Assembly (NCBI RefSeq): GCF_900105115.1
Contig: NZ_FNRV01000001.1
Coordinates: 5,707,501-5,771,500, forward strand
Direction of reading: 5' to 3'
Length of the DNA stretch: 64,000 nucleotides
Origin: Pseudomonas mohnii
GTDB taxonomy: Bacteria; Pseudomonadota; Gammaproteobacteria; Pseudomonadales; Pseudomonadaceae
The number at the start of each line of letters is the position of its first letter. Positions within the stretch are counted from its first letter, which is position 1. Positions 48,702 through 64,000 of this stretch are shown in pieces. Position numbers and translations under genes: made by a program. The notes under the pieces were generated by a model. The model ran no database searches. It was not told the DNA's origin and worked only from the letters and a program-made list of their open reading frames with translations.

Positions 48702-48751
48702 CAGGCGCCCGGCAACTTCGTTTGTCCCCCCATGCATCAAGGAGTTTCATC

Positions 48752-49078
48752 ATGAAAAAGTTGACCACCGTTGTTCTGTCCCTGTGCCTGGCCGTCGGCG
48801 CCGCCAGCGTGTTTGCCGCCGATACGATGAGCAATGACAGCATGAGCAAAGACTCGATGTCCAAGGACGCCATGTCCAAGGACACGATGAAAAAAGACGC
48901 GATGACCAAGGATTCAATGTCCAAGGACACCATGTCCAAGGACGCGATGAAAAAAGATGCCATGTCCAAAGATGCCATGTCCAAAGATGCCATGTCCAAA
49001 GATGCGATGAAGAAAGACGCCATGTCCAAGGACAGCATGAGCAAGGACGCGATGAAAAAGGACGCCATGTCGCAGTAA
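48752..49078 (+). CDS. Pentapeptide MxKDx repeat protein, exported
   Basis: A 108-residue protein: signal peptide about 1-22 (ending VFA), then about 17 units of MSKDA/MSKDS/MKKDA. This is the MxKDx family known from beta- and gamma-proteobacteria, whose role is unknown. The sequence is rich in Met, Lys and Asp and lacks Cys; Met could bind metals such as copper (inference). AAGGAG precedes ATG 48752. It follows the molybdoenzyme by 50 bases and may be in the same transcript. Confidence 0.9.
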   Translation: MKKLTTVVLSLCLAVGAASVFAADTMSNDSMSKDSMSKDAMSKDTMKKDAMTKDSMSKDTMSKDAMKKDAMSKDAMSKDAMSKDAMKKDAMSKDSMSKDAMKKDAMSQ

Positions 49079-49810: not shown

Positions 49811-50476
49811 TTGTCCGCTCAAACCTGCGTTTTCCATCACCCGTACCGTGCCTTTCTGTTCGATATGGACGGCACCGTACTGACGTCCATTGCCGCCGCC
49901 GAGCGCGTCTGGGCGACCTGGGCCAAGCGTCACGGCGTCGATGTCGAGACCTTCCTGCCGACCATCCACGGCGCCCGCGCCATCGACACGATCAGCCGTC
50001 TGGCGTTACCCGGCGTCGATGCCGAAGCCGAAGCGGCATGGATCACCCAGGCGGAACTCGAGGATGTCGACGGGGTGGCAGAGGTGGTGGGTGCGGCGGG
50101 GTTTCTCAAGTCATTGCCGGCCCATCGATGGGCCATCGTCACCTCGGCCCCCAGAGCGTTGGCGTTGCGCCGCATGGCCGCCGCCGGGATTCCCGAGCCG
50201 CAGGTGATGGTCACGGCCGAAGACGTCAGCGCTGGCAAACCTGATCCGGCCGGTTATCGATTGGCGGCCCGGCGACTGGGTGTCGAGATCACCGAATGCC
50301 TGGTGTTCGAAGACGCCACTGTTGGTATTCTCGCGGCCGAAGCGGCGGGGGCGGATTTGCTGATCGTCACGGCCACCCATGATCAGCCGATGCAGACGGC
50401 GCACGCGACCCTGGCCGGTTATGACCAGATTGTGGCCAGACTGAACGACGACCTGATCCAGCTGCAGCTTTTGTGA
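49811..50476 (+). CDS. HAD-superfamily phosphatase (sugar-phosphate type)
   Basis: A 221-residue HAD-IA hydrolase: motif I FDMDGTV (Asp18, Asp20), motif II VTSAPRAL (Ser/Thr), Lys in GKPDPAGY, motif IV FEDATVGILAAEAAG. It should dephosphorylate small sugar phosphates, like YfbT/YniC. Start is TTG 49811, with AGGAAGG upstream, which is unusual but the only start with a ribosome site. Isolated, followed by a terminator shared with the convergent lipoprotein gene. Confidence 0.88.
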   Translation: MSAQTCVFHHPYRAFLFDMDGTVLTSIAAAERVWATWAKRHGVDVETFLPTIHGARAIDTISRLALPGVDAEAEAAWITQAELEDVDGVAEVVGAAGFLKSLPAHRWAIVTSAPRALALRRMAAAGIPEPQVMVTAEDVSAGKPDPAGYRLAARRLGVEITECLVFEDATVGILAAEAAGADLLIVTATHDQPMQTAHATLAGYDQIVARLNDDLIQLQLL

Positions 50477-50495
50477 GTGATAGCGCCTTCCAATG

Positions 50496-50529
50496 AAAAA
50501 GGCCCGCCAGCAGGTTCTGCTGAAGGGCC
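50496..50529 (-). terminator. Rho-independent terminator of the convergent lipoprotein gene
   Basis: On the minus strand GGCCC-TT-CAGCAG / CTGCTG-GC-GGGCC forms a long stem followed by TTTTT. Read from the plus strand it has no T run, so it mainly ends the minus-strand gene. Confidence 0.75.
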
Positions 50530-50607
50530 GTCAGGTGAGCGTTAAGGGGGCGTTCGCACCGCTGCCGGCGTCGCCTCGCCAGTCGGGATGCGGGTGCTGG
50601 CCTTGAG

Positions 50608-51060
50608 CTATTTCTGCGCAACGCCTTGCTTGATGTCCCCACAGAAAATATCGACATTTCCATCGGTCGCCGCAGTGCGCACGACAATGGAATACTCACC
50701 GGCCAGCAGCACGGACAATTCGACGGGGGCGCTTCGGCTGAACGACCAGCCACGTACGGCCTGGCGTTCGGTATCGACCTTGTCGTTCATGGCGTAGGCG
50801 ACGGGCCCGGGTTTTGCGCAACTGCCCTTGTTGATGAACGAATAGAGGCGCAAGGGCAGCACCGCTCCGGTTGGAACACCGCTGATGAAGAAGCTGAGGC
50901 CGGTCTGTTTGCCCCAGTCGGACAAGGCGACATTGCCGATCTGACCAGTGTTTTGCCGGGTGGCAACCAATGTAACGGACACGCTCTTGTTTGATGAAGT
51001 AGCGCAGCCGAACAGACTGGTCATGACCATGAGCGCGGTAAGTGAGTTTCTGAATTTCAT
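50608..51060 (-). CDS. Small lipoprotein of unknown function
   Basis: A 150-residue protein with a lipoprotein signal (ALMVMTSLFGC, Cys about 19) and a beta-rich exported part with two further cysteines (KGSCAKPG and IFCGDI) that may be bridged. I do not recognise the family. ATG 51060 has GGAGG upstream, so it is a genuine gene. It lies alone, downstream-convergent to the HAD gene. Confidence 0.75.
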   Translation of the reverse strand: MKFRNSLTALMVMTSLFGCATSSNKSVSVTLVATRQNTGQIGNVALSDWGKQTGLSFFISGVPTGAVLPLRLYSFINKGSCAKPGPVAYAMNDKVDTERQAVRGWSFSRSAPVELSVLLAGEYSIVVRTAATDGNVDIFCGDIKQGVAQK

Positions 51061-51204
51061 TGCCAACCTCCTGCATAGAAGAACCGCAATGGGTGATTAA
51101 GGGGTATAGCTCATTAATCGCTGTCCGGGGCTGCAATGCTGTCCACTCAAGGTCGAACACTGACTTGTGGCGAGGGAGCAAGCGCCCTCGCCACAGATTA
51201 ACGA

Positions 51205-52566
51205 TTACGACGCTTGCTTCAGCACCGGCGCGCGCTTGCCGAGCTTCATCAGCCAGAAGTAGCTCAAGGCCGGCACCAGCAACCCGACCAGCCAGGCCAG
51301 GTCGACGCCGTCGAGGGCCGTGGCCACCGGGCCGACGTAGAGCGTGGTGTTCATGAACGGAATCTCCAGCGCAATCGCCAGCACAAAACTGCCGCAGGCA
51401 ATCCAGTTGACCCGGCCATAGATCCCGTTGACGTCGAAGATGTCATCGATCCGGTACTGACCTTTGCGCAAGCAGTAGTAATCCACCAGATTGATCGCCG
51501 TCCACGGGATCAGGAAGTAGCTCATGAAGAAAATGAAGTTGAGAAAGAAGGTGATGAAGTCATCCTGACTGATGGTGCACAGGGCGGTGGCCACCAGGCT
51601 GATCACCAGCATGAACAGGCCGCGCACCCGGGGTGTCACTTTCAGGCGGGTGAAGGGTTCGATCACGGTGATGGTCGACATGAAAGCGCCGTACAGGTTG
51701 AAGACGTTGATCGACACCTGGCCGTAGACGATGAAGGCGAACAGCAGGAGCGCGCCGCTGCCGAACAGCCCGGCGACATGGCCGCCGACGTTACTGGAGA
51801 AGTCGCCGATGCCGACGCTCAGGATCGCCCCGAGAATCATCATCCACGCACCGCCACTGACCGTCCCGGCGTAGCTGTACCAGAACACCTTGGCGGTCGG
51901 CGTTTGGCTGGGCAGGTAGCGCGAATAGTCGGCGACATACGGCGCATACGACAGCTGCCAGGTGACGGCAATGCTCACGGCCACCAGGAATTTCGACAGC
52001 GAGAACCCGGTCGGTAGCCACTGCTCGGGCGGAATCGACAGTTGCAGGGCGAAGAGCGTGGCGACGACGAACACCAGCAGCGAAAGGATCGACAGCAGTT
52101 TCTGCAGGCGGTGAATCAATCGGTAGCCGTAGAGCGCGACGACGAAGCACAAGGCGCCGATCAGGTAGATGTTGCCGTTGGCGGGCAACGGGCTGACCGA
52201 CTCCAGCGCTTGGGCGGCGAGCAGCGTGTTGCTGACGAAGAATCCCAGGTAGATCAGCATCACGAACAACAGCGGCAACACCGCCCCGAGCACGCCGAAC
52301 TGGGCCCGGCTCTGGATCATCTGCGGGATGCCCAGTTTCGGTCCCTGGGCGGAGTGGGAGGCCATGAATATCGCCCCGATCAGCGAGCCGATGATGATTG
52401 CCAATGCGCTCCAGAACAGGTTGAGCCCCATCACCACCGGCAGCACACCCGAGGCGATGGTGGTGATGTTCATGTTGGCGCCGAACCAGATGAAAAACAG
52501 TGAACCCGGCTGACCATGACGTTCGGCTTCGGGGATGAAATCGATGCTTCTTTTTTCAACTTGCAT
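51205..52566 (-). CDS. NCS1-family nucleobase/vitamin permease A
   Basis: A 453-residue inner-membrane symporter with 12 helices, of the purine-cytosine permease branch: FFIWFGANMNITTIASGVLP near the N terminus, ASHSAQGPKLGIPQMIQSRAQFG (family hallmark) and SYAPYVADYSRYLP. The family imports nucleobases, hydantoins, allantoin or vitamin-like heterocycles. AGGAG precedes ATG 52566. It follows the isochorismatase gene by five bases (one operon). A second NCS1 gene is at 56330, about 40% similar by eye. Confidence 0.9.
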   Translation of the reverse strand: MQVEKRSIDFIPEAERHGQPGSLFFIWFGANMNITTIASGVLPVVMGLNLFWSALAIIIGSLIGAIFMASHSAQGPKLGIPQMIQSRAQFGVLGAVLPLLFVMLIYLGFFVSNTLLAAQALESVSPLPANGNIYLIGALCFVVALYGYRLIHRLQKLLSILSLLVFVVATLFALQLSIPPEQWLPTGFSLSKFLVAVSIAVTWQLSYAPYVADYSRYLPSQTPTAKVFWYSYAGTVSGGAWMMILGAILSVGIGDFSSNVGGHVAGLFGSGALLLFAFIVYGQVSINVFNLYGAFMSTITVIEPFTRLKVTPRVRGLFMLVISLVATALCTISQDDFITFFLNFIFFMSYFLIPWTAINLVDYYCLRKGQYRIDDIFDVNGIYGRVNWIACGSFVLAIALEIPFMNTTLYVGPVATALDGVDLAWLVGLLVPALSYFWLMKLGKRAPVLKQAS

Positions 52567-52571
52567 GGCGA

Positions 52572-53249
52572 TCACTCCTGAGTCCGGACGAGGTGGGTGT
52601 GCAGGCGGGCGATGGTGCTTTGCAGTTCGTGGGGCTGGTGGGCGAACAGGTCCGGGTGCTCGGGACTCAGGCTTACGTAGTCACGGTTTTCCAGGGCGCG
52701 CCGGCATTCGCCGGTGGTGAGGATTTCCAGGGAGTAGACCCAGTTGGCCATGATCAACAGCGCCGAATAGTGCCCGGCCTCGGTGGTCGTGGTGCACGCA
52801 TCGCTGACCAGGCGAATGTGGTAGCCGAGGGCAAAGGCATCGAACACCGTGGTCAACACGCAGACATCGGTCAGCACGCCGCCGATGATCAGCGTGTCGA
52901 CGTCCAGTGCCTTGAGCCGGGCATCGAGGTCGGTACGGTGGAAAGCGCTGTAGCGGCCTTTATCGACGACGGCTTCATCGGGTCGCGGGGCGAGGCTTTG
53001 GATGATCTCCACTTGCCGCGTGCCGGCGCGATAGCCGCTCGGGCCGCCATCGGCGGCGCGGGGTTCGCCCGGTGGCAGATCACTGCCGTCGGCCTGGTTG
53101 ATATGGCGGGTATAGATAACGGGGACCCGCTGCTGGCGGGCGCTTTGGAGCAGTGTGGCGGTGTTGGCCAGCACCGAATCGAAGTGTTCGAGGACGAAAC
53201 CGTCCTCCTGTTGCATGTCGATGATCAACAGTGCGTTTTTATTGTTCAT
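52572..53249 (-). CDS. Isochorismatase-family cysteine hydrolase
   Basis: A 225-residue hydrolase of the RutB/nicotinamidase/N-carbamoylsarcosine-amidase group. The catalytic triad is visible: Asp11 (IIDMQQ), Lys97 (VDKGRYSAF), Cys130 (GGVLTDVCVL, with the cis-peptide before it). It should cleave an amide or ureido C-N bond. It forms an operon with NCS1 permease A and lies next to a luciferase-like monooxygenase and flavin reductase, the set used for ring opening and hydrolysis in the Rut pathway. ATG 53249 starts MNNKNALL. Confidence 0.9.
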   Translation of the reverse strand: MNNKNALLIIDMQQEDGFVLEHFDSVLANTATLLQSARQQRVPVIYTRHINQADGSDLPPGEPRAADGGPSGYRAGTRQVEIIQSLAPRPDEAVVDKGRYSAFHRTDLDARLKALDVDTLIIGGVLTDVCVLTTVFDAFALGYHIRLVSDACTTTTEAGHYSALLIMANWVYSLEILTTGECRRALENRDYVSLSPEHPDLFAHQPHELQSTIARLHTHLVRTQE

Positions 53250-53382
53250 AGAGCAAACCTGATCATGGGCCGGACGCTGTTGCGTCCAGCCAGCCCGATA
53301 ACCACCGGGCCGAAGCACAATGCACCACAACCGCGAGGCTATCGCCTGACGTCGAGGTACGTGGATTCCTGTTCGGGAGTGC

Positions 53383-53535
53383 TCAGTGAACTATTTGCCA
53401 GAAGCCGTTCTGCTTGGCCGAAACACTGGCGCGCAAACGCTTGAAATGCAGGTGCGAAGCGGTCCATTCACCGCGCAGGTAAGCCCGCGCGGCGCCGGAG
53501 GGAAGGGCGAGTGACTGGAGACGACCATTGAACAT
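53383..53535 (-). CDS. Possible 50-residue small protein
   Basis: A 51-codon frame starts at ATG 53535 and reads MFNGRLQSLALPSGAARAYL, ending KQNGFWQIVH. It is basic, has typical Pseudomonas codon use, and has GGGTC about ten bases upstream. I do not recognise it. It lies upstream of the isochorismatase operon. It may equally be a chance frame. Confidence 0.3.
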   Translation of the reverse strand: MFNGRLQSLALPSGAARAYLRGEWTASHLHFKRLRASVSAKQNGFWQIVH

Positions 53536-53548
53536 GGAAATCGACCCT

Positions 53549-53660
53549 GTAGGAGCGAGCCCGCTCCGGGCGGCGTTCCGACGAAAGACCTGAGAACCCC
53601 GCGGGGTGTCAGGCCCCCAGCGTTATCGTTGACGAACATCGCGAGCAAGCTCGCTCCTAC
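53549..53660. repeat. REPIN (inverted REP pair)
   Basis: REPs at 53549-53570 (slightly diverged) and 53639-53660, inverted, with the common GGTGTCAGG...GCGTTATCGTTGACG centre. Confidence 0.8.
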
Positions 53661-53679
53661 ATAAAGCAACTCAGAGGAC

Positions 53680-54723
53680 TCAGCGGAACGCCGGGACCAC
53701 GTGTTTGATAAACAGCTCCAGGGATTTCTTCTTCTCGGCGTGCGGCAAGCTGTTGTCGCACCAGAAGCTGAACTCGTCGACGCCCAGTTCCTGATAGTAC
53801 TTGATGCGCGGAATGATCTCTTCCGGGGTACCGATCATGGCGGTTTTGTGCAGGCTGTCCAGTTCGAACTCCGGACGGCCGGCGAATTTCTCTTCCGGGC
53901 TTGGCGCCAGGAAGCCGTTGACCGGGGTTTCCTTGTTGCCGAACCAGGCATCGAAAGTGCGATAGAACTTGGCGATCGCCTTGGCCCCGACCTTCCAGCC
54001 TTCGGGATCATCGACTGCGTGAACATGGGTGTGACGCAGCACCATCAGTTGCGGGCGTGGCACGTCCGGGTTGTTGTCCAGCGCGGTCTGGAACTTGTTC
54101 TTCAGGTCCAGTACTTCTTCGTCGCCTTTCATCAACGGCGTCACCATGACGTTGCAGCCATTGGCCACGGCGAAGTTGTGCGAGTCCGGGTCACGGGCGG
54201 CGATCCACATCGGCGGGTTCGGCTTCTGGATTGGCTTGGGCACGCTGGTAGAGGTCGGGAATTTCCAGATGTCGCCGTCATGGGCGTAGTCGCCTTGCCA
54301 CAGGGCACGAACCACCGGAACCATTTCCCGTAGCGCCTGGCCGCCGCTTGAGGCTGGCATGCCACCGGCCATGCGGTCGAATTCAACCTGGTAAGCACCA
54401 CGGGCCAGGCCCACTTCCATGCGCCCGTTGCTGATCACGTCCAGCAATGCGCATTCGCCGGCGACCCGGATCGGGTGCCAGAACGGCGCGATGATGGTGC
54501 CGGCGCCGAGGTGGATGGTGGTGGTCTTGGCCGCCAGGTAGGCCAGCAGCGGCATCGGGCTCGGCGAGATGGTGTATTCCATGGCGTGGTGCTCACCGAT
54601 CCAGACGGTGCTGAAACCACCGGCTTCGGCCATCAAGGTCAGCTCGGTCAAGTCTTCGAACAGCTGGCGATGGCTGATGCTTTCGTCCCAACGTTCCATG
54701 TGTACGAACAGGGAAAATTTCAT
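53680..54723 (-). CDS. Luciferase-like (LLM) flavin-dependent monooxygenase
   Basis: A 347-residue TIM-barrel enzyme of the bacterial-luciferase-like class, which uses reduced FMN from a separate reductase. Landmarks: STVWIGEHHAMEYTISPSP near 35-55, LGAGTIIAPFWHPIRVAGE, GRMEVGLARGAYQVEFDRM and IGTPEEIIPRIKYYQELGVDEF. Close relatives include RutA-type and alkanal-type oxygenases; the substrate is open. ATG 54723 has GAGGTAA upstream. The flavin reductase at 55527 is the likely partner. An operator-like GGTATACC site is 130-150 bases upstream. Confidence 0.9.
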   Translation of the reverse strand: MKFSLFVHMERWDESISHRQLFEDLTELTLMAEAGGFSTVWIGEHHAMEYTISPSPMPLLAYLAAKTTTIHLGAGTIIAPFWHPIRVAGECALLDVISNGRMEVGLARGAYQVEFDRMAGGMPASSGGQALREMVPVVRALWQGDYAHDGDIWKFPTSTSVPKPIQKPNPPMWIAARDPDSHNFAVANGCNVMVTPLMKGDEEVLDLKNKFQTALDNNPDVPRPQLMVLRHTHVHAVDDPEGWKVGAKAIAKFYRTFDAWFGNKETPVNGFLAPSPEEKFAGRPEFELDSLHKTAMIGTPEEIIPRIKYYQELGVDEFSFWCDNSLPHAEKKKSLELFIKHVVPAFR

Positions 54724-54852
54724 GACGCTTACCTCGGATCTTTTGTTGTCGGCCTGTCGACTGCGGGCCTGTTGCCTGGAATGAGCGCAGGGCTCCCCGG
54801 TGTTCTCGCCAGTGTAAAGCGCGTTCCTGAGTACGGCTGTTCGGCTGATTGA

Positions 54853-54873
54853 TTATTGGTATACCATAATACG
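54853..54873. promoter_or_regulatory. Operator O1 (GGTATACCATAATAC) upstream of the monooxygenase gene
   Basis: ATTATTGGTATACCATAATA plus C: a palindromic GGTATACC core with A/T-rich flanks. The same sequence recurs at 56061, 56236, 62471 and 63762, always in promoter regions of this gene cluster. Shape fits a dimeric regulator such as a GntR protein (inference). Confidence 0.7.
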
Positions 54874-54975
54874 GAATATCTGCAAAATATTTCTCTTAGA
54901 CGGTCACTTACCAAGAGTCACTCGGCTTATGCCTATCTGTCCCTGGGCACGCAGGAGGGCGGTTATGTATTCCGG

Positions 54976-55513
54976 CGCGGACAACACGGGCATTCAGACG
55001 GTCGGCGTTATCGTTGACGTCCATCGCGGGCAAGCCCGCTCCCACAAGGATTTGCGTGGAACCCAAAACCGTAGGAGCGAGCCCGCTCGCGAAAAACGCG
55101 CGGACAACGCAGTCATTCAGACAGCCAGCGTTATCGTTGACGTCCATCGCGAGCAGGCTCGCTCCTACAGGGATTTGCGTAGATCTGTAGGAGCGAGCCT
55201 GCTCGCGAAAAACGTGCGGGCACCACGGGCATTCAGACGACCCGCGTTATCGTTGACGTCCATTGCGAGCAGGCTCGCTCCTACATGGATTTGCGTAGAT
55301 CTGTAGGAGCGAGCCCGCTCGCGAAAAACGCGCGGGCAACACGGGCATTCAGACGACCCGCGTTATCGTTAACGCCCATCGCGAGCAGGCTCGCTCCTAC
55401 AGGGATTTGCGTAGATCTGTAGGAGCGAGCCCGCTCGCGAAAAACGCGCGGACAACACGGGCATTCAGACGACCCGCGTTGTTGACGCCCATCGCGAGCA
55501 GGCTCGCTCCTAC
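54976..55513. repeat. Tandem array of four and a half REPIN units
   Basis: Full units start at about 55071, 55187, 55303 and 55419 (period 116); a partial unit begins near 54976. The unit is the same REPIN as in the array at 41680-42478, with the shared GGGCATTCAGACGACCC and GCGTTATCGTTGACG centre. The array separates the monooxygenase promoter from the flavin reductase gene. Confidence 0.95.
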
Positions 55514-55526
55514 ATGGATTGTGGAA

Positions 55527-56012
55527 TCAGGCGAGAACGGGCAGGGCGCCCATCTTGCCGTGGCAATACACCAGTGGTCCGGCATTCTGCCGGGGCACGA
55601 TCAGGTTCTTCACCGCGCCGACCATGATCGCGTGGTCGCCCCCTTCATATTCGCGCCACAGTTCGCATTCGATGACCGCCGTGGCGTTGGCCAGGATCGG
55701 ATTGCCCAGCTCGCTCAATGTCCACTCGATGCCTTGTGCCTTGTCTTTGCCCTTGCGCGCGAAGGCATAGGCTTCGCTTTGCTGACCGCCGGAAAGCACA
55801 TGAATGGCAAAGCGTTTGTTCTTGATCAGAACCGGGTAGGAGTCGGAGCTGTAGTTGGGGCAGAACAGCACCAGGGCCGGATCCATGGACAGCGAACTGA
55901 ACGCACTGGCTGTCAGGCCGACGATTTGCCCGTCGTCATCGAGCGTGGTGATCACGGTTACGCCGGACGGGAACGAGCCCATGACTTGTTTGTAGATGGC
56001 GGCATCGATCAT
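55527..56012 (-). CDS. Flavin reductase (HpaC/RutF-like)
   Basis: A 161-residue NAD(P)H:flavin reductase of the flavin_reduct family. Landmarks: MGSFPSGVTVITT, GLTASAFSSLSMDPALVLFC (flavin-binding loop) and GDHAIMVGAVKNL near the C terminus. It should supply reduced FMN to the luciferase-like monooxygenase. ATG 56012 has GAGGAC upstream. Operator O2 lies about 50 bases upstream of the start. Confidence 0.9.
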   Translation of the reverse strand: MIDAAIYKQVMGSFPSGVTVITTLDDDGQIVGLTASAFSSLSMDPALVLFCPNYSSDSYPVLIKNKRFAIHVLSGGQQSEAYAFARKGKDKAQGIEWTLSELGNPILANATAVIECELWREYEGGDHAIMVGAVKNLIVPRQNAGPLVYCHGKMGALPVLA

Positions 56013-56060
56013 TGGACTGTCCTCGGGTGTGGTGCATGGTTTTTATGAGTTTGTAGGTCT

Positions 56061-56080
56061 GATGGTATACCGTAATACAT
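56061..56080. promoter_or_regulatory. Operator O2 upstream of the flavin reductase gene
   Basis: GATGGTATACCGTAATACAT contains the GGTATACC core of O1 with one change in the right flank. It is close enough to the reductase start to overlap its promoter. Confidence 0.65.
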
Positions 56081-56233
56081 CGTTTGCAAGGGCTTTTTCT
56101 ACCGGCCGATAAACGTACACCTCCGGTCTTGAGGTCAATAAATACAGGGCTTTCAGCTAGGCAGAGGGTGGGGGTTTGCGGCAGGATTGCAGATCAGATG
56201 GGATTGCAAAGACCGGATCAGTCTTGTGAAAAA

Positions 56234-56254
56234 GTTGGAATACCATAATATGGT
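56234..56254. promoter_or_regulatory. Operator O3 upstream of NCS1 permease B
   Basis: GTTGGAATACCATAATATGG is the same element with GGAATACC in place of GGTATACC. It is the near-exact mirror of O4 (62471). It lies about 80 bases before the permease start, in the gap shared with the divergent flavin reductase gene. Confidence 0.65.
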
Positions 56255-56329
56255 GTTCATCTGAGGGGCGACCAGAGAGTCCCCCCGGTTTGGCTTCATA
56301 CAAAGATAAGAACAGACAAACTCGAGTTC

Positions 56330-57742
56330 ATGCATATGTCCCAGATGTCCCGGCAAGACCCGTTGATCGAGAATCACACGGTCGACTACGTTCCACTCGC
56401 AGAGCGCCACGGGAAGGCCCGCGATCTGTTCACCCTATGGTTCAGCACCAACATTGCGCCACTGCCTATCGTCACCGGTGCCATGGTGGTTCAAGTGTTC
56501 CATCTCAATTTGTTCTGGGGGCTGTTGGCGATTGCCCTGGGACACATGGTCGGCGGGCTGGTGATTGCCCTGGCATCGGCCCAGGGCCCGCGCATGGGCA
56601 TTCCGCAAATGGTGCAGAGCCGGGGTCAGTTCGGTCGCTATGGCGCGCTGCTGATCGTGTTCTTTGCCGCCCTGATTTACGTCGGTTTTTTCATTTCCAA
56701 CATCGTGTTGGCCGGCAAATCGATCGTCGGCATCGTGCCTTCGGTCCCGGTGCCTGCCAGTATCCTGATCGGTGCCCTCAGCGCGACCGCCATCGGGGTG
56801 ATCGGTTACCGCTTCATCCATACCCTCAATCGTATTGGTACCTGGGTGATGGGCAGCGCGCTGCTCGCCGGTTTCCTCTACATCTTCGCCCATGACTTGC
56901 CGGCGGACTTCTTCACCCGTGGCGGTTTCAACCTGTCCGGCTGGTTGGCCACCGTGTCCCTGGGCATCATCTGGCAGATCAGCTTTTCGCCTTACGTGTC
57001 GGACTACTCGCGCTACCTGCCGGCGGATATCGGCATCACTCGCCCGTTCTTCGCCACTTACCTGGGCGCGACGCTGGGCACGATCCTCTCGTTCACTTTC
57101 GGCGCGGTGGCGGTCCTGGCGACCCCGGAAGGCACTGAAGCGATGGCTGCGGTCAAGCAATCGACCGGTTGGCTGGGGCCGATTCTGATGGTGCTGTTCC
57201 TGCTCAACATCATCAGTCACAACGCCTTGAATCTGTATGGCGCGGTGCTGTCGATCATCACCTCGATCCAGACCTTCGCCAGTCAGTGGACGCCGAGCAT
57301 CAAGGTGCGCGTGGTGTTGTCGAGCGTGGTGCTGGCGGGGTGCTGCGTGGTCGCGCTCGGCGCTTCGGCGGACTTCATCTCACAGTTCATCGGGCTGATC
57401 CTGGCGCTGCTGTTAGTGCTGGTGCCGTGGGCTTCGATCAACCTGATCGATTTCTATGTGATCAAGCGTGGGTGCTACGACATTGCCTCGATCTTCCGTG
57501 CGGATGGCGGGATCTATGGGCGGTTCAATCTGCATGCGATCGTGGCGTATTTCATCGGGATCATCGTGCAGTTGCCGTTCGCCAATACATCGCTGTATGT
57601 CGGGCCTTATGCCAATCTGGTTGAGGGCGCGGATCTGTCGTGGCTGGTGGGGTTGGTGGTGACGTGTCCGCTGTATTACTGCCTGGCAACTCGTGGGCAG
57701 GCTCGGTTGAGCCGGGTTGCGGGGCTTGGTTTTACTGATTGA
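56330..57742 (+). CDS. NCS1-family nucleobase/vitamin permease B
   Basis: A 470-residue 12-helix symporter of the purine-cytosine permease branch: LAERHGKARDLFTLWFSTNIAPLPIVTGAM, then ASAQGPRMGIPQMVQSRGQFGRYGALL, and SFSPYVSDYSRYLP, the same landmarks as permease A. Two NCS1 proteins in one cluster may handle related substrates, or substrate and product. The start is ATG 56330 or 56336 (no clear ribosome site). A strong terminator follows. Confidence 0.9.
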   Translation: MHMSQMSRQDPLIENHTVDYVPLAERHGKARDLFTLWFSTNIAPLPIVTGAMVVQVFHLNLFWGLLAIALGHMVGGLVIALASAQGPRMGIPQMVQSRGQFGRYGALLIVFFAALIYVGFFISNIVLAGKSIVGIVPSVPVPASILIGALSATAIGVIGYRFIHTLNRIGTWVMGSALLAGFLYIFAHDLPADFFTRGGFNLSGWLATVSLGIIWQISFSPYVSDYSRYLPADIGITRPFFATYLGATLGTILSFTFGAVAVLATPEGTEAMAAVKQSTGWLGPILMVLFLLNIISHNALNLYGAVLSIITSIQTFASQWTPSIKVRVVLSSVVLAGCCVVALGASADFISQFIGLILALLLVLVPWASINLIDFYVIKRGCYDIASIFRADGGIYGRFNLHAIVAYFIGIIVQLPFANTSLYVGPYANLVEGADLSWLVGLVVTCPLYYCLATRGQARLSRVAGLGFTD

Positions 57743-57762
57743 TATTGGGTGATGTTTGTCTG

Positions 57763-57792
57763 GAATGCCCGGCTTTTGGCCGGGCATTTTTG
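57763..57792 (+). terminator. Rho-independent terminator of NCS1 permease B
   Basis: AATGCCCGGC pairs with GCCGGGCATT around TTTTG, followed by TTTTG; 20 bases behind the stop. Confidence 0.85.
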
Positions 57793-57912
57793 TTCTGGTG
57801 ATTCGTGAATACAGGCAGCCTGGTGCCGACCTGTTGTTTGTTTTCGGAGTACCTACCCATTCCTGCGGTAACGGCCACTTTTGGTTTTGCCCTGATGGCG
57901 AGTCTCTTTTTC

Positions 57913-58134
57913 AAAAGCCAAAGCGAGGCGGCCTGACAGCGGACCTGATTACAGGTCTGTCTGCGATCCCCTTGTGGGAGCCAGCCTGCTGGCGATGAAC
58001 GCCCGGATAACGCGATCCTTCAGACAGGGCGCGTTATCGTTGACGTCCATCGCCAGCAGGCTGGCTCCCACAGGGGATTGGCGGTGTCCGCGAAAATCAG
58101 GTCGGCTGTCAGGCCGCCTCGCGTTGCTCTGGCT
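57913..58134. repeat. Nested inverted repeat: outer arms around a REPIN
   Basis: Outer arms (57913-57950 and 58094-58134) share AGCGAGGCGGCCTGACAG and GACCTGATT in inverted order. Inside is a REP pair of a slightly different type (57974-57995 and 58050-58071, core GGAGCCAGCCTGCTGGCGA). The layers share one centre, so they probably moved or expanded as a unit. Confidence 0.75.
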
Positions 58135-58368
58135 ATTGATGATCTTGCCCCATCGCGGCGGGCCCAGCGAACGCCAGGGTTTGATTACTTGGCCCCGGGT
58201 GGCGTTGCGCTTTTCAAAGTGACCCGCTGTAAGAGCGGAACCCCAAGTGGCCGTTACCGAAGGAATGGACAGGTACACTCACTGAAAAAAAAGGTCACCA
58301 CAACCCGACGTTGTGATGACCCGAGGGTGACACTCTATTACCGGTCCACTGGCATGGACCTCAAAACA
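58135..58368. repeat. Dispersed intergenic sequence common in fluorescens-group genomes
   Basis: Includes AAGTGACCCGCTGTAAGAGC and GGCCGTTACCG, a sequence I recall from many intergenic regions of related Pseudomonas. No gene. A stem (CACAACCCGACGTTGTG, 58300-58316) lies within. It is downstream of the ABC operon and may contain its 3' end. Confidence 0.4.
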
Positions 58369-59523
58369 TCAATGGGCCCCAGCCGCCTTGTTCAGGTCGC
58401 TCTCAGCCCATTCGGTATAGACACAAGCATCCGCCGTCGCCCAGCGCACGCGCACCGGATCGCCCGCCTTCATGGGCATGCCGGCGGCAGACAACGCCTT
58501 GACGGTCATCGAGGTGCCACCCGAGGTCACCACACTGCAGGTCTGGCTTTCGCCCAGGAACAACACTTCCACGACCTTGGCCGAGACTTCATTCCAGCCG
58601 GCGGCCAGTGGCTCCCGGGCTGCTTGCTCAACGCTCAAGGCCAATGCTTTTTCCGGACGCACCATCAGCAGCACATCCTGATGGGTTTGCAGCCCGGCGG
58701 TCAGGCGGATCGACAGCGACTGCCCTTCAAACGAAGCCGCCGCATTGCCCTGGGCCTTGAGTTTGAGGAAGTTCGAGTTGCCGAGGAACGAGGCGACGAA
58801 GGCATTCGGCGGGTTCTGGTACAGGTCATAGCCGCTGCCCAGGCCAACGATCTTGCCGTGGCTGAAGATCGCGATGCGCTGGGACAGGCGCATGGCTTCT
58901 TCCTGGTCGTGGGTCACGTAGACGATGGTGATGCCCAGGCGCCGATGCAGCTGGCGCAGTTCATCCTGCAAATCTTCACGCAGTTTTTTGTCCAGTGCGC
59001 CGAGGGGTTCGTCCATCAGCAGGATGCGTGGCTCGTAGACCAGTGCCCGGGCGATGGCGACCCGTTGCTGCTGGCCGCCGGACAGTTGCGAAGGGCGGCG
59101 ATGGGCAAACTGCTCGAGCTGCACCAGCTTGAGCATGGCATCGACCCGGCGTTCACGTTCGGCCGCGGACAGTTTGCGAATCGTCAGCGGGAAGGCAATG
59201 TTGTCGCGCACCGACAGATGCGGGAACAGCGAGTAGCGCTGGAACACCATGCCAATATCGCGTTTGTGCGGCGGTACATTGACCAGCGACTGACCATTGA
59301 CCAGGATCTCGCCGCTGCTCGGCGTTTCGAAGCCGGCGAGCATCGACAGGGTGGTGCTTTTGCCGGAGCCGCTGGAGCCGAGGAAGGTCAGGAACTCACC
59401 GTCCTTGATGTCCAGCGAGATGTTGTCCACGGCGGCGAAGTCGCCGTAGTACTTGTTCAGGTTGCGCAGGCTGACCAGCGGCTGGTCGTTTTGCTGGGCG
59501 CTATCTTTGATCACTGCACTCAT
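58369..59523 (-). CDS. PotA-like ABC transporter ATP-binding protein
   Basis: A 384-residue ATPase of the spermidine/Fe3+/2-aminoethylphosphonate class. Walker A GSSGSGKST (49-57), signature LSGGQQQR, Walker B LLMDEPLGALDKKLR, switch His in VTHDQEEAMRLS, then a C-terminal TOBE domain (about 290-380). AGGAGAACGAC precedes ATG 59523. It is last in the operon binding protein - permease - permease - ATPase. Its C terminus is complete. Confidence 0.92.
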   Translation of the reverse strand: MSAVIKDSAQQNDQPLVSLRNLNKYYGDFAAVDNISLDIKDGEFLTFLGSSGSGKSTTLSMLAGFETPSSGEILVNGQSLVNVPPHKRDIGMVFQRYSLFPHLSVRDNIAFPLTIRKLSAAERERRVDAMLKLVQLEQFAHRRPSQLSGGQQQRVAIARALVYEPRILLMDEPLGALDKKLREDLQDELRQLHRRLGITIVYVTHDQEEAMRLSQRIAIFSHGKIVGLGSGYDLYQNPPNAFVASFLGNSNFLKLKAQGNAAASFEGQSLSIRLTAGLQTHQDVLLMVRPEKALALSVEQAAREPLAAGWNEVSAKVVEVLFLGESQTCSVVTSGGTSMTVKALSAAGMPMKAGDPVRVRWATADACVYTEWAESDLNKAAGAH

Positions 59524-59540
59524 GTCGTTCTCCTGCGCGC

Positions 59541-60350
59541 TCAGGCGCTGATTTCGTTGCGCCGGCGCAGTGCGGCGGCGATCACCATGACCAATACCGA
59601 GAGGCCGATCAGCAGCGTCGAGGCGACGGCGATCACGGGCGTCAGGTCCTGGCGCAGGGTGGTCCACATTTTCACGGGGAGGGTTTGCAGGGTCGGGCTG
59701 GCCATCATCACGCTCAACACCACTTCATCCCACGAGACGAGGAAGGCGAAGAGGGCGCCGGCCACCATGCCGGGACGAATCGCCGGGAAGGTGACCTTGA
59801 ACACTGCTTGCAGGCGCGAGGCACCGCAGATCACCGCGGCATCCTCGATCGACTGGTCGAACAGCTTCAGCGAGTTGATGATCGAGATGATGGTGAACGG
59901 CAACGCGACGATCACATGGCTGACCACGAACGCGAACATCGTCCCGGTGTAGCCCAGTTTCAGGAACAGCGCGTACACCGCCACGGCGATGATCACCAGC
60001 GGCACGATCATTGGCAGGGTGAACAGGCCGTAGAGCATTTCCCGGCCAGGAAAGCGGCCGCGCACCAGGGCGAACGCGGTTGGCAAACCCAGGGCCACGG
60101 CGAAGAACGTGGTCAGCACCGCGACCTTGAGGCTGGCCATGGCCGCGTTCATCCAGTCGGCGTTGGAGAAGAACTGGACGTACCATTTCAGCGTCCAGCC
60201 CGGTGGCGGGAACACCAGCCATTGCGACGATCCGAACGACAGCAGCACGATGAACACGATCGGCAGCAACAGGAACAGACCGATCAGCCCGGTGGTGGCG
60301 TACAGGCCGAAGCGCATCCGGCGGCTCATGGCATTGGGGGTCAGGAGCAT
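59541..60350 (-). CDS. PotC-like ABC transporter permease
   Basis: A 269-residue inner-membrane permease with six helices and the EAA loop SIEDAAVICGASRLQAVFKVTFPAIRPG. It follows PotC/PhnV-type permeases and pairs with the permease encoded upstream. ATG 60350 starts MLLTPNAMSRR; a start at the inner ATG (MSRR) is possible. Gap to the ATPase is 17 bases. Confidence 0.9.
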   Translation of the reverse strand: MLLTPNAMSRRMRFGLYATTGLIGLFLLLPIVFIVLLSFGSSQWLVFPPPGWTLKWYVQFFSNADWMNAAMASLKVAVLTTFFAVALGLPTAFALVRGRFPGREMLYGLFTLPMIVPLVIIAVAVYALFLKLGYTGTMFAFVVSHVIVALPFTIISIINSLKLFDQSIEDAAVICGASRLQAVFKVTFPAIRPGMVAGALFAFLVSWDEVVLSVMMASPTLQTLPVKMWTTLRQDLTPVIAVASTLLIGLSVLVMVIAAALRRRNEISA

Positions 60351-60356
60351 GACGGC

Positions 60357-61289
60357 TTACCTCGCGTTACTGGCGCCAACCGGGGATTCCGGCTGAAGCT
60401 TCAGGTAGAAGTAGAACAGCACCAGCGTAATCACGATCAGCAACGCGGCGCCGGCGCTCGCCAGGCCCCAGTTGAGGAACGACTGCACCTGCTGAATGAT
60501 GAACTCGGGCAGCATCATGTTCTGCGCACCGCCCAACAGGGCCGGGGTGACGTAGTAACCCAGCGACATCACGAACACCATCAGGCCCCCGGAGAACAGG
60601 CCCGGCCGGCACAGCGGCAGGAACACCCGGAAGAAGTTGGTCCACGGGCTGGCACCGCAGATCGAACCGGCCTGCAGGATCATTGGGTCGATCGCCTGCA
60701 TGGTCGCCTGCAGCGGCAGCACGATGAACGGGATCATGATGTAGCTCATGCCGATCACCACGCCGGTCAGGTTGTGCACCATTTCCAGGGGCTGGTCGAT
60801 GATGCCCATGGCCATCAGCGCCTTGTTGATCACCCCGGAAGCTTGCAGCAGCACCAGCCAGGAGTAGGTGCGGGCGAGGAGGCTGGTCCACATCGACAGC
60901 AGCACGATGTTGAGAATCCAGCGACCCCAGCCGCGCGGTACCAGGGTGATCGCCCAGGCCAGCGGGAAGCCCAGCAACAGGCTGAACAGCGTGACCAGGC
61001 CGGCCACCGAGAAGGTGTTGAGCAACACCCGGGCGTACGCCGAGTTGGCGAACAACTGTTCGTAATTGCCCAGGCCCGGCACCGGTTCAAGCACCCCGCG
61101 CAACAGCAGGCCAATCAACGGCGCGAGAAAGAACAGGCCAAGGAACAACAGCGCGGGGATCAGGTTGCTTGCACCACGCCAGCGCTGCGCCAGGGTCGGG
61201 GATTGCGTCATCGCAGCGGCCTTGCCGGCAGCGCCGGAGGCGCTCCCGACGGGCGTGGATGGACGGGACGCGGTTACCGTCATTTTCAT
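60357..61289 (-). CDS. PotB-like ABC transporter permease
   Basis: A 310-residue inner-membrane permease with six helices after a Ser/Ala-rich N-terminal tail (about 1-35). EAA loop: MILQAGSICGASPWTNFFRVFLPLCRPG. ATG 61289 overlaps the stop of the binding-protein gene (61286), so translation may be coupled. The cluster order is that of Pot/Phn-type importers. Confidence 0.9.
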   Translation of the reverse strand: MKMTVTASRPSTPVGSASGAAGKAAAMTQSPTLAQRWRGASNLIPALLFLGLFFLAPLIGLLLRGVLEPVPGLGNYEQLFANSAYARVLLNTFSVAGLVTLFSLLLGFPLAWAITLVPRGWGRWILNIVLLSMWTSLLARTYSWLVLLQASGVINKALMAMGIIDQPLEMVHNLTGVVIGMSYIMIPFIVLPLQATMQAIDPMILQAGSICGASPWTNFFRVFLPLCRPGLFSGGLMVFVMSLGYYVTPALLGGAQNMMLPEFIIQQVQSFLNWGLASAGAALLIVITLVLFYFYLKLQPESPVGASNAR

Positions 61290-62310
61290 TTGACCAGCCA
61301 TTCGTTCCACCGTGTCGCGATGGCCGGACCGTTCTTGGCCCAGTACGCGAAATCAAGAGTGATCTGATCCTTAACGTAGGCCGTCGGCAGGTTAGGGGCG
61401 AGCACCGAGTCCAGGCGCGCCACGCTGTCGACGTTGACCGGGGCGTAGGCGGTCAGGTTGGAGAAGTCGGCCTGGCCCTTGGCACTGCTGGCGTTGGCCA
61501 GGAACTTCATCGCCGCGTCCTTGTTTTTCGAACCTTTTGGGATGACCAGGATGTCGGCCATGACCAGGTTCTGCTTCCAGCTTACGCCCACCGGGGCGCC
61601 GTCTTCCTGCAGGGCGTGAATCCGGCCGTTCCAGAACTGACCCATGCTCGCTTCACCGGAGGCCAGCAACTGTTGCGACTGCGCGCCACCGCCCCACCAG
61701 ACGATGTCTTTCTTGATGGTGTCGAGTTTCTTGAAGGCGCGATCCAGGTCCAGCGGGTAGAGCTTGTCGGCCGGCACGCCGTCGGCCAGCAGTGCCAGTT
61801 CCAGCACGCCTGGGCTTGGCCATTTGTAGAGGGCGCGTTTGCCGGGGTAGGTCTTGGTGTCGAACAGCGCGGACCAGTCCTGGGGTTTGGCGGCGCCGAG
61901 CTTGCCTTCGTTGTAGCCGAGGACGAAGGAGAAGAAGAACGAGCCCACACCGTGATCGGAGACGAACCGCGGGTCGATCTTGGTGCGATCGATGACTTTG
62001 AAATCGAGGGTTCGAGCAGGCCCTCAGAGGCGGCGCGCAAGGCGAAGTCAGCTTCGACATCGACCACGTCCCATTGCACGTTGCCGCTTTCGACCATGGC
62101 TTTGAGCTTGCCGTAGTCGGTCGGGCCATCCTGGACCACCGTGATGCCGCTGGCCTTGCTGAACGGGTCGGCCCAGGCCTGCTTCTGCGCGTCCTGGGTG
62201 CTGCCGCCCCAGCTGACGAAGTTGACGCTTTCAGCCGCCATTGCCACGTGACTGGCCGTGGCCAGCAAACCCGCGAACAGTACTGCGGTTGCACGTTTGT
62301 TCAACACCAT
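61286..62310 (-). pseudogene. ABC transporter binding protein (PotD/2-AEP type) with a frameshift
   Basis: The first ~98 codons from ATG 62310 give a signal peptide (ending AMA) and AAESVNFVSWGGSTQDAQKQ, then WDVVDVEADFALRAASEGLL. After EGLLEP the frame is lost and continues in another frame as DFKVIDRTKIDPRF, SFFFSFVLGYNEGK and so on to 61286. One G too few in the run at 62008-62010 explains it; with it restored the protein would have about 341 residues, normal for the family. Either the gene is broken or the base call is wrong. GAGGGCG precedes the start. The 3' part retains normal codon use. Confidence 0.85.
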
Positions 62311-62469
62311 TTTCACGCCCTCATTTGTTGTGTTTTTGAGCGGGCTTTGTATTGCCCGCCTATCGGGAGCAGTAGGTCCATCTGGCCTCTAAAGGCGACC
62401 GTGCCAAGGGCTGTTATTGGTGCTTTCCCTGCCGGGCGCACTTGGCTAAATCGTTCGGTCTATGGAATA

Positions 62470-62488
62470 TCATATTATGGTATTCCAA
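62470..62488. promoter_or_regulatory. Operator O4 upstream of the ABC importer operon
   Basis: TCATATTATGGTATTCCAAA is the inverted form of O3 (GGAATACCATAATATG). It lies about 165 bases before the binding-protein start, in the gap to the RibB-type gene. Confidence 0.65.
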
Positions 62489-62575
62489 ACTTTGTGCAAG
62501 CATTTTGCCTTACCGGCTATCTGCCGAATCGGTTTTATTTGGAAAACTTCGGTGCCTCTGATCGCCACAATTCCA

Positions 62576-62599
62576 TGGGGGAGCGAGCTTGCTCCCACC
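62576..62599. repeat. Single REP element
   Basis: TGGGGGAGCGAGCTTGCTCC plus CACC, a solitary REP directly behind the RibB-type gene. Confidence 0.75.
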
Positions 62600-62618
62600 G
62601 GGGCAAATTCCGCTCGGA

Positions 62619-63728
62619 TCACTGGGTAAACGCAATACTCTCCACCACCTCCAGGTCGTACCCGGTCAAACCGGCGTATTTCAGCGGTGGCCCCAAGTGC
62701 CGCAGTTTGCCCACACCCAGGTTCTGCAAGATCTGCGCCCCGGTGCCGACTTCCGAATAGATCCGTGACTGCGAACGGCTGAACTGCCGTGGCGGTTGGG
62801 TCAATTGTGGTACGCGCTCCAGCAACGCTTGCGAGGATTCGTGATTGGCCAACACCACGACCACGCCACATCCTTCTTCAGCCACTCGCTGTAACGCCGC
62901 CCACAACGTCCAGTTGGACGGCCCGCTGTACTCGGCGCCGACCAGGTCGCGCAACGGGTCGATCACATGCACGCGCACCAGCGTCGGTTGTTCGCGACGC
63001 ACGTCACCCATGACCATTGCCATGTGCACACCGCCTTCGATGCGATCCTCAAAGGTGATCAGACGGAAGGTGCCATGCACCGTTGGCAGCTCGCGCTCGC
63101 CGATGCGTACGACCGTGTGCTCGGTACTTAAACGATAGTGGATCAAATCGGCGATGGTGCCGATCTTGATCCCGTGTTTGCGCGCGAACACTTCCAGATC
63201 CGGGCGACGGGCCATGGTGCCGTCGTCGTTCATGACTTCAACGATCACCGAGGCCGGTGTGAAACCGGCCAGGCGTGCCAGGTCGCAACCGGCCTCGGTA
63301 TGCCCGGCGCGGGTCAGGACGCCGCCTTCCCGGGCGCGCAACGGGAAGATGTGCCCCGGCTGCACGATATCGGCGGCACTCGCGCCTTGGGCGACGGCAG
63401 CGGCGACGGTACGCGCCCGATCAGCGGCGGAGATGCCGGTGGTCACGCCGACGGCGGCTTCAATCGACACGGTGAACGCCGTGCTGAACACGCTGCCATT
63501 GCTCGGCACCATCTGTTCCAGGCCAAGGCGCTGGCAGTGCTCGTCGGTCAGGGTCAGACAGATCAGCCCGCGTGCTTCCCGGGCCATGAAGCTGATGGCT
63601 TCGGCGCTGCAACGGTCGGCGGCGAGCAACAGGTCGCCTTCGTTTTCCCGGTCTTCGTCGTCAACCAGGAGCACCATCTTGCCTTGGCGGTAGTCTTCGA
63701 TGATTTCTTCGATGCTGTTGAAGGCCAT
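62619..63728 (-). CDS. 3,4-dihydroxy-2-butanone-4-phosphate synthase with degenerate GTP-cyclohydrolase II domain (RibBX type)
   Basis: A 369-residue protein. Residues 1-200 form an intact RibB domain, which makes the four-carbon precursor of riboflavin: DDEDRENEGD (23-32) binds Mg2+, and TRAGHTEAGCDLARLAG holds the catalytic His and substrate residues. The C-terminal ~165 residues match GTP cyclohydrolase II but lack the three zinc cysteines (no CDC motif), so this part is probably inactive, as in RibBX of Pseudomonas. There is no FMN riboswitch upstream; the promoter instead carries O5. It is probably a second, pathway-specific copy. ATG 63728 has no clear ribosome site. Confidence 0.9.
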   Translation of the reverse strand: MAFNSIEEIIEDYRQGKMVLLVDDEDRENEGDLLLAADRCSAEAISFMAREARGLICLTLTDEHCQRLGLEQMVPSNGSVFSTAFTVSIEAAVGVTTGISAADRARTVAAAVAQGASAADIVQPGHIFPLRAREGGVLTRAGHTEAGCDLARLAGFTPASVIVEVMNDDGTMARRPDLEVFARKHGIKIGTIADLIHYRLSTEHTVVRIGERELPTVHGTFRLITFEDRIEGGVHMAMVMGDVRREQPTLVRVHVIDPLRDLVGAEYSGPSNWTLWAALQRVAEEGCGVVVVLANHESSQALLERVPQLTQPPRQFSRSQSRIYSEVGTGAQILQNLGVGKLRHLGPPLKYAGLTGYDLEVVESIAFTQ

Positions 63729-63760
63729 GTGAGGATTCTCGGTGTTTGTTGGAAATATTT

Positions 63761-63778
63761 TGTGGTATACCATAATAC
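63761..63778. promoter_or_regulatory. Operator O5 between the divergent RibBX and DUF1330 genes
   Basis: TGTGGTATACCATAATACAA fits the consensus of O1-O4 best. Both genes start within 40 bases on either side, so one bound dimer could control both. Confidence 0.7.
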
Positions 63779-63799
63779 AAAACAACCGGAGAGGTCACT

Positions 63800-64000
63800 A
63801 TGAAGGCGTACTGGATTGCTCACGTGGATATCACCGATCCCGTTCAATACAGCCAATACACCCAGCGGGCGCCGAAGGCGTTTGCCGAATACGGCGGACG
63901 GATATTGGCGCGTGGTGGGCGCAGCGAGGCGATGGAAGGGCGGCCGACACCGCAACGCAGCGTGGTGATCGAGTTCGATTCCTATGACCAGGCGGTGGCC
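63800..64000 (+). CDS. DUF1330 protein, 3' end outside the window
   Basis: 67 codons are visible: MKAYWIAHVDITDPVQYSQY, then PKAFAEYGGRILARGGRSEAMEG. This is the start of a DUF1330 protein (normally about 95 residues), a small dimeric alpha/beta-barrel fold found in catabolic clusters, function unknown. GGAGAGG precedes ATG 63800. It is the first gene of what is probably another operon of the same regulon. Confidence 0.85.
   Translation, partial: MKAYWIAHVDITDPVQYSQYTQRAPKAFAEYGGRILARGGRSEAMEGRPTPQRSVVIEFDSYDQAVA

Follow-up and report, generated by a model that had tools for sequence, protein, structure and literature searches.

A putative trigonelline-type catabolic regulon of Pseudomonas with an oxygenase of a distinct clade, separate reductase and NUDIX proteins and a predicted flavin-supply gene

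At the end of a 64,000-nucleotide stretch of Pseudomonas mohnii DNA (hereafter the window; contig NZ_FNRV01000001.1, positions 5,707,501 to 5,771,500, in our numbering G000:C1:5707501-5771500 of a 6.6-Mb genome) lies a cluster of genes for a luciferase-like monooxygenase (LLM, the proposed oxygenase), flavin reductases, transporters, the flavin biosynthesis protein RibBX and further enzymes. The cluster likely acts as a trigonelline-type (Tgn) catabolic regulon controlled by a single GntR/FadR-type protein, with trigonelline or a closely related compound as the probable substrate. The sequence comparisons presented here indicate a genuine and conserved gene set under common regulation. An initial annotation had seen no described pathway with this gene content. 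This view cannot be maintained, because tgn clusters of Acinetobacter and other bacteria match it in content and even in the operator. Pathways of this kind are already known, and what appears to be new is an oxygenase clade of its own, a split reductase-NUDIX pair and a predicted flavin-supply gene.

Results

The putative operator that links the genes is a 15-bp element, GGWATACCRTAATAY. In the whole 6.6-Mb genome it has six exact matches, all of them inside the cluster, five in the window and one at L003:12704 (L003 is the locus reaching past the window end; window position = L003 position + 61000). With one mismatch allowed, a single extra site outside the cluster was obtained, while the reversed control gave none. 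The six exact sites agree with the initial proposal of one regulon. A shared regulatory site had also been proposed, in the form of the 8-mer GGTATACC; such a site exists, but the true element is the longer one. The 8-mer itself, with one mismatch allowed, was weakly enriched in the window (13 occurrences compared to a shuffle mean of 7.8; 3 of 100 shuffles reached 13). The operator reads GGTATACCATAATAC upstream of the LLM gene (54858..54872, + strand) and between the divergent genes of RibBX and a DUF1330 protein (63764..63778, +), GGTATACCGTAATAC upstream of flavin reductase 1 (56064..56078, +), and GGAATACCATAATAT both upstream of permease B (56237..56251, +) and upstream of the importer operon (62472..62486, -). 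The remaining site, upstream of AA_synth, is located at L003:12704-12718. A GntR regulator of the FCD type is encoded at L003:6287-7039 (-), and this putative GntR/FadR-type protein would bind TGGTATACCATAATAC-like operators.

The distribution of the genes was determined in 198 Pseudomonadaceae genomes, which are mutually related, so that the counts do not represent independent events. The LLM (at least 81% identity) occurred in 48 genomes of six genus groups, with presence and absence mixed inside most of the groups concerned; one genome outside the 48 (G002) had an LLM relative of 47% only. The operator was detected in 52 genomes, namely in all 48 with the LLM (at least two copies each) and in four without it (one copy each), and was missing from the other 146. 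RibBX-like proteins are nearly universal (196 genomes), but a second copy (at least 78%) was found in exactly the 48 LLM genomes and in none of the 150 others. LLM and RibBX shared a contig in 38 of the 48, within 12 kb in 34 cases and 39-55 kb apart in four, and were on separate contigs in ten. A second NUDIX protein (at least 56%) was present in 47 of the LLM genomes (missing: G106) and in none of the 150. The shared distribution of LLM and second RibBX, together with that of the operator, supports the earlier assignment of RibBX to the regulon.

A site model was derived from 128 unique Pseudomonas sites, with ten shuffles per locus as control. It recognized intergenic sites in eight of nine TgnB-like loci (L119, L120, L121, L122, L123, L126, L129 and L138, with L123 placed immediately beside the TgnB clade and not in it) with scores of 17-34, whereas no shuffle scored above 7.8. 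The loci with matches include Acinetobacter and Sinorhizobium, most sites adjoin AA_synth or GntR genes, and a GntR-type regulator is present in six clusters. In L124, which encodes an LLM relative of 66%, the site separates the divergently oriented genes of RibBX and DUF1330, the same layout as in the window.

The plasmid cluster of Acinetobacter sp. PK01, in which NCBI names tgnA, tgnB and tgnC, comprises genes for DUF1330, GntR, AA_synth, an alpha/beta hydrolase, TgnA, TgnB, TgnC, an NCS1 permease, a porin-like protein, a succinate-semialdehyde dehydrogenase (SSADH) and CMD. Apart from the porin-like protein and the long TgnA, each of them has a counterpart in the cluster studied here, which runs about 10 kb beyond the window end; the window contains only part of the gene set, and the GntR gene, the tgn enzyme counterparts, CMD, the second flavin reductase and the NUDIX gene are all situated beyond it. 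Counterparts of TgnC, TgnD, TgnE and TgnF stand together there, an aldehyde dehydrogenase (ALDH; L003:9717-11198, -), an alpha/beta hydrolase (L003:11195-12043, -), SSADH (L003:7599-9167, -) and AA_synth (L003:12071-12661, -), along with the PcaC-like protein CMD (L003:7128-7517, -). Compared to six TgnB-like clusters, ALDH is 51-56%, AA_synth 55-61% and GntR 36-42% identical; compared to two Acinetobacter clusters, SSADH reaches 70%, CMD 77-79% and permease B 56-58%. The importer binding protein shares 55-70% identity with those of four importer-bearing clusters. Conversely, the best match of the Acinetobacter hydrolase in the genome is the cluster hydrolase (35%, 145 bits versus 82 for the next), and that of the PK01 permease is permease B (57%, 537 bits versus 254), which thus takes the place of the tgn NCS1 permease.

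The LLM gene (Pfam PF00296) is located at 53680..54723 (-). A figure legend in PMC11354265 gives UniProt Q6F9F6 as TgnB; NCBI-named Acinetobacter proteins (P0121-P0123) were used in its place, and P0121 served as the reference TgnB. The nearest characterised relative found for the LLM was TgnB. This fits the type of enzyme originally predicted, a two-component ring-opening oxygenase, and it answers the question of orthology to a characterised enzyme in part, as the LLM is a sister-clade relative of TgnB and not its strict ortholog. Among the 120 LLM relatives listed, four (77-83% identical) carry the JGI name ‘flavin-dependent trigonelline monooxygenase, oxygenase component’, and those with 95-99% identity and an organism name are Pseudomonas. 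In a sample of 398 genomes of the phylum, six had a window-type LLM (at least 66%), 16 had others (43-54%) and none had both, an absence that carries no weight with about 0.2 expected by chance. A third oxygenase type was observed in G028 (L127, G028:C1:725000-744900), 43% identical to the window LLM and 42% to TgnB. It belongs to a second, deeply divergent Tgn-like cluster of a genome that also holds a window-type cluster, and the site model detected no site in L127.

The reductases differ in architecture. TgnB-like loci encode long reductases of 302-320 amino acids or hydrolase fusions of 575 (L129) and 621 amino acids (L123); these fusions are single open reading frames with an apparent alpha/beta hydrolase, a flavin reductase and a NUDIX-like tail. 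The window-type loci of Pseudomonas have 161-amino-acid reductases and a separate NUDIX protein instead. Accordingly, a TgnA-type reductase of about 310 amino acids with a C-terminal domain is absent from the cluster, which contains flavin reductase 1 (55527..56012, -; PF01613), flavin reductase 2 (L003:9219-9704, -), both of 161 amino acids, and NUDIX (L003:5721-6290, -). The tails of nine of the ten long reductases aligned with seven window-type NUDIX proteins (hhalign probability 99.8%, E 1.4e-27); the tenth (L126) was omitted because the cutting rule gave no match. As controls against the tails, the housekeeping NUDIX gave 88.8%, the Arthrobacter NUDIX 1.5%, and CMD, DUF1330 and AA_synth less than 1%. 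Among solved structures, a profile of six tails retrieved 3rh7 (E 2e-51), which matches TgnA over its full length, followed by 3cng (E 2e-6), a NUDIX hydrolase. Matches of 27-30% to NUDIX in L122 and L129 turned out to be C-terminal halves of long reductases, while Pfam detected no NUDIX domain in six long reductases even at E 5. The strict Nudix box is present in all seven window-type NUDIX proteins and in none of nine TgnA tails, a zero to be read together with the alignment, as the strict pattern likewise fails on the housekeeping paralog and on the NUDIX protein of Arthrobacter. By these profile alignments, the stand-alone NUDIX protein is a homologue of the C-terminal half of TgnA, a region for which Pfam gives no annotation. 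Because fused forms exist, it likely works as a partner of the reductase; its role may be FAD cleavage as one option or regulatory as the other.

RibBX (62619..63728, -) combines a DHBP synthase domain (PF00926) with a GTP-cyclohydrolase-II-like domain (PF00925). Alignment to 2bz0 revealed that the first domain is retained, while in the second the catalytic, zinc-binding cysteines known from the E. coli enzyme are replaced. The protein thus has the composition of the RibBX class. No RibBX gene was found in the available DNA around the nine TgnB-like loci. At gathering thresholds, no Rfam family was detected in window positions 50000-64000 or in L003, so that this RibBX carries no flavin mononucleotide (FMN) riboswitch. 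The Arthrobacter plasmid cluster L118 (LLM 79%) contains, as one example, a gene for riboflavin kinase and one for an unrelated NUDIX protein at L118:6881-7830.

Downstream of the LLM gene and on the same strand follow an isochorismatase-family cysteine hydrolase (52572..53249, -; PF00857) and the NCS1-family permease A (NCS1-A; 51205..52575, -; PF02133), which form an optional module. The whole-genome site search gave no GGWATACCRTAATAY-type site before this pair, just as had been stated at the outset. The membership of the pair had been considered weak, a doubt that is now largely settled: the hydrolase occurs in 14 of the 198 genomes, all with the LLM, and adjoins it in 13 (in G154 it is located elsewhere). 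In 25 of 80 named loci it is present, always with NCS1-A, 255-453 bases past the LLM match. Its best NCBIfam scores, 82 bits for BiuH and 58 bits for RutB, are both far below the cut-offs. The permease of the Acinetobacter tgn cluster is 35% identical to NCS1-A versus 57% to NCS1-B, and on this comparison NCS1-A does not correspond to the tgn permease.

Permease B (NCS1-B, PF02133) is encoded at 56330..57742 (+). The importer operon comprises a Pot-type ATP-binding cassette (ABC) ATPase (58369..59523, -; PF00005 and PF08402; start deduced from its overlap with the adjacent gene), permease 2 (59541..60350, -; PF00528), permease 1 (60357..61310, -; PF00528) and a binding protein (~61286..62316, -) of which two pieces match SBP_bac_8. 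A Pot-type importer had been described, and its ATPase and two permeases are indeed present, but the binding-protein gene is frameshifted, with three stops in one frame and the intact protein of a relative aligning across two frames. Of the 80 named Pseudomonas loci, 18 yielded the gene, always as a single open reading frame of 327-385 amino acids. The seven functions originally reported within 13 kb were all detected by Pfam, but the DUF1330 gene (63800..64000, +; PF07045) is truncated by the window end and is complete at L003:2800-3096.

An insertion sequence element at L003:3285-4822, consisting of two transposase open reading frames with HTH_Tnp_1 and rve domains, is inserted where the DUF1330 and NUDIX genes converge and disrupts no pathway gene. 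The genes of the LLM and flavin reductase 1 are separated by an array of direct repeats resembling repetitive extragenic palindromes (54975..55520), arranged in tandem with 116-nt spacing, and more copies occur at 53590-53675 and 57974-58151. Three additional NCS1 permeases are encoded at G000:C1:5675267-5696962, in the approximately 35-kb stretch preceding the window, and a small protein of repeated MSKDSM/MKKDAM units at window positions 48722-49078.

Discussion

Trigonelline degradation by tgnABCDEF-R of Acinetobacter baylyi ADP1 and relatives, including the steps after ring opening, was reportedly described by Perchat and co-workers in 2018. A passage of PMC8269262 states that the trigonelline ring is opened by TgnA/TgnB, and in a passage of PMC7913881 TgnF is given as homologous to DUF1185/AA_synth and as stimulating TgnE. 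By analogy, trigonelline or a close N-methylpyridinium carboxylate would enter the Pseudomonas cell via permease B, the ABC importer or both. With reduced FMN from the short flavin reductases, the LLM would open the ring by C-C cleavage, ALDH would oxidise the product, the PcaD-like alpha/beta hydrolase would split the oxidised compound, and SSADH, aided by the TgnF-like AA_synth protein, would yield succinate. Isochorismatase and permease A may form an optional route of entry, perhaps for the substrate as an amide. RibBX, which would provide a riboflavin precursor, and NUDIX, possibly converting FAD to FMN, may together be a regulated part for flavin supply or handling that is specific to this oxygenase clade.

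Compared to the tgn cluster of Acinetobacter, the set is alike in GntR and operator, AA_synth, alpha/beta hydrolase, ALDH, SSADH, CMD, DUF1330, NCS1 permease and LLM with flavin reductase. It differs in the sister-clade oxygenase, in having two short reductases plus a stand-alone NUDIX protein whose Nudix box is intact instead of the long TgnA, in the added RibBX and the optional isochorismatase/NCS1-A pair, and in the spreading of the genes over several operators. The pSymA cluster of Sinorhizobium meliloti, which we take to be the trigonelline trc region, shares AA_synth, hydrolase, reductase, LLM, ALDH, the Pot-type importer and an operator-like site upstream of AA_synth; on the other hand, its LLM is 50% identical, and no RibBX, NUDIX gene or DUF1330 was found nearby. 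This cluster sits between nodulation and nitrogen-fixation genes. In the lux-rib operons of Photobacterium, a riboflavin gene is coupled to a luciferase-fold FMN-dependent oxygenase. The set described here, by contrast, is a putative catabolic regulon and contains the RibB branch and NUDIX only.

Several observations weigh against an assignment to trigonelline. The LLM shows only 49% identity to the Acinetobacter TgnB P0121 and falls into a separate 20-row clade with a support of 100/100, and 16 positions are fixed differently between the two clades (122 versus 124 sequences). The remaining names among the 120 listed relatives are generic, and the hydrolase is only 31-38% identical to those of the six TgnB-like clusters. 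Moreover, the site model detected no site in the TgnB-like locus L137, which lies on a short contig, or in the Arthrobacter cluster L118 in spite of its LLM of 79% identity. Because of the 16 fixed differences, the substrate may differ. One of them, Met193 versus Gln193, is located in the strand aligned with the FMN pocket of luciferase; with regard to substrate choice, such clade-specific residues are only suggestive. It is therefore conceivable, though somewhat doubtful, that the same chemistry is applied to another N-heterocycle such as 1-methylnicotinamide, homarine, nicotinate or pyridine derivatives, the oxygenase having shifted while the downstream enzymes and the regulator were kept. 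The split between the clades (sequences at least 70% identical to P0121 show 47-51% identity to the window LLM), the different reductase architecture and the restriction of RibBX and NUDIX to this side would agree with such a shift, and the optional amidohydrolase and permease A would fit an amide form. However, the binding protein (55-70%), permease B (51-58%) and SSADH and CMD (70-79% to Acinetobacter) are conserved above the level of the oxygenase, and the operator is common to both sides, which points to a shared inducer. For homarine, no genetic description of a pathway was found in listings of the open-licence literature. A more far-reaching and rather unlikely version of these ideas is a distinct Tgn-type branch in which FMN supply by RibBX and NUDIX is operator-linked, TgnA represents a fused, catalytically decayed reductase-NUDIX pair, and the amidohydrolase and permease A feed an amide such as 1-methylnicotinamide.

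Two other explanations are far less probable than a shifted substrate. The Rut pathway had been chosen for comparison but is not the nearest system. A Rut-like degradation of pyrimidines or hydantoins would involve the same broad classes of proteins (LLM, flavin reductase, isochorismatase fold, alpha/beta hydrolase) and permeases of the nucleobase family. The likeness is confined to the superfamilies, since none of the tested member models reached its cut-off (RutB 58 bits versus 378, RutF 68 versus 255, RutD 90 versus 239), the downstream enzymes are others, and SSADH, AA_synth and the operator link the cluster to tgn; the Rut-like pathway was rejected and is hardly credible. Scarcely more probable is a catabolism of riboflavin or lumichrome in which the flavin itself is the substrate and RibBX and NUDIX take part in flavin turnover. 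Several flavin genes in one regulon and the riboflavin kinase of the Arthrobacter cluster would suit it, but DHBP synthase and riboflavin kinase build flavin instead of degrading it. It was rejected since the downstream enzymes are those of tgn and since no RibBX was found in TgnB-like clusters that share the operator.

Conclusions

With a trigonelline-type regulon as the preferred reading, a Pseudomonas gene set is placed on a known pathway type for a plant betaine, and a precise operator together with its putative regulator is defined. The C-terminal half of TgnA, unannotated in Pfam, receives a first reading as a NUDIX-like domain. The cluster would represent a catabolic regulon with flavin genes of its own, whose co-occurrence with the oxygenase was complete in the sample.

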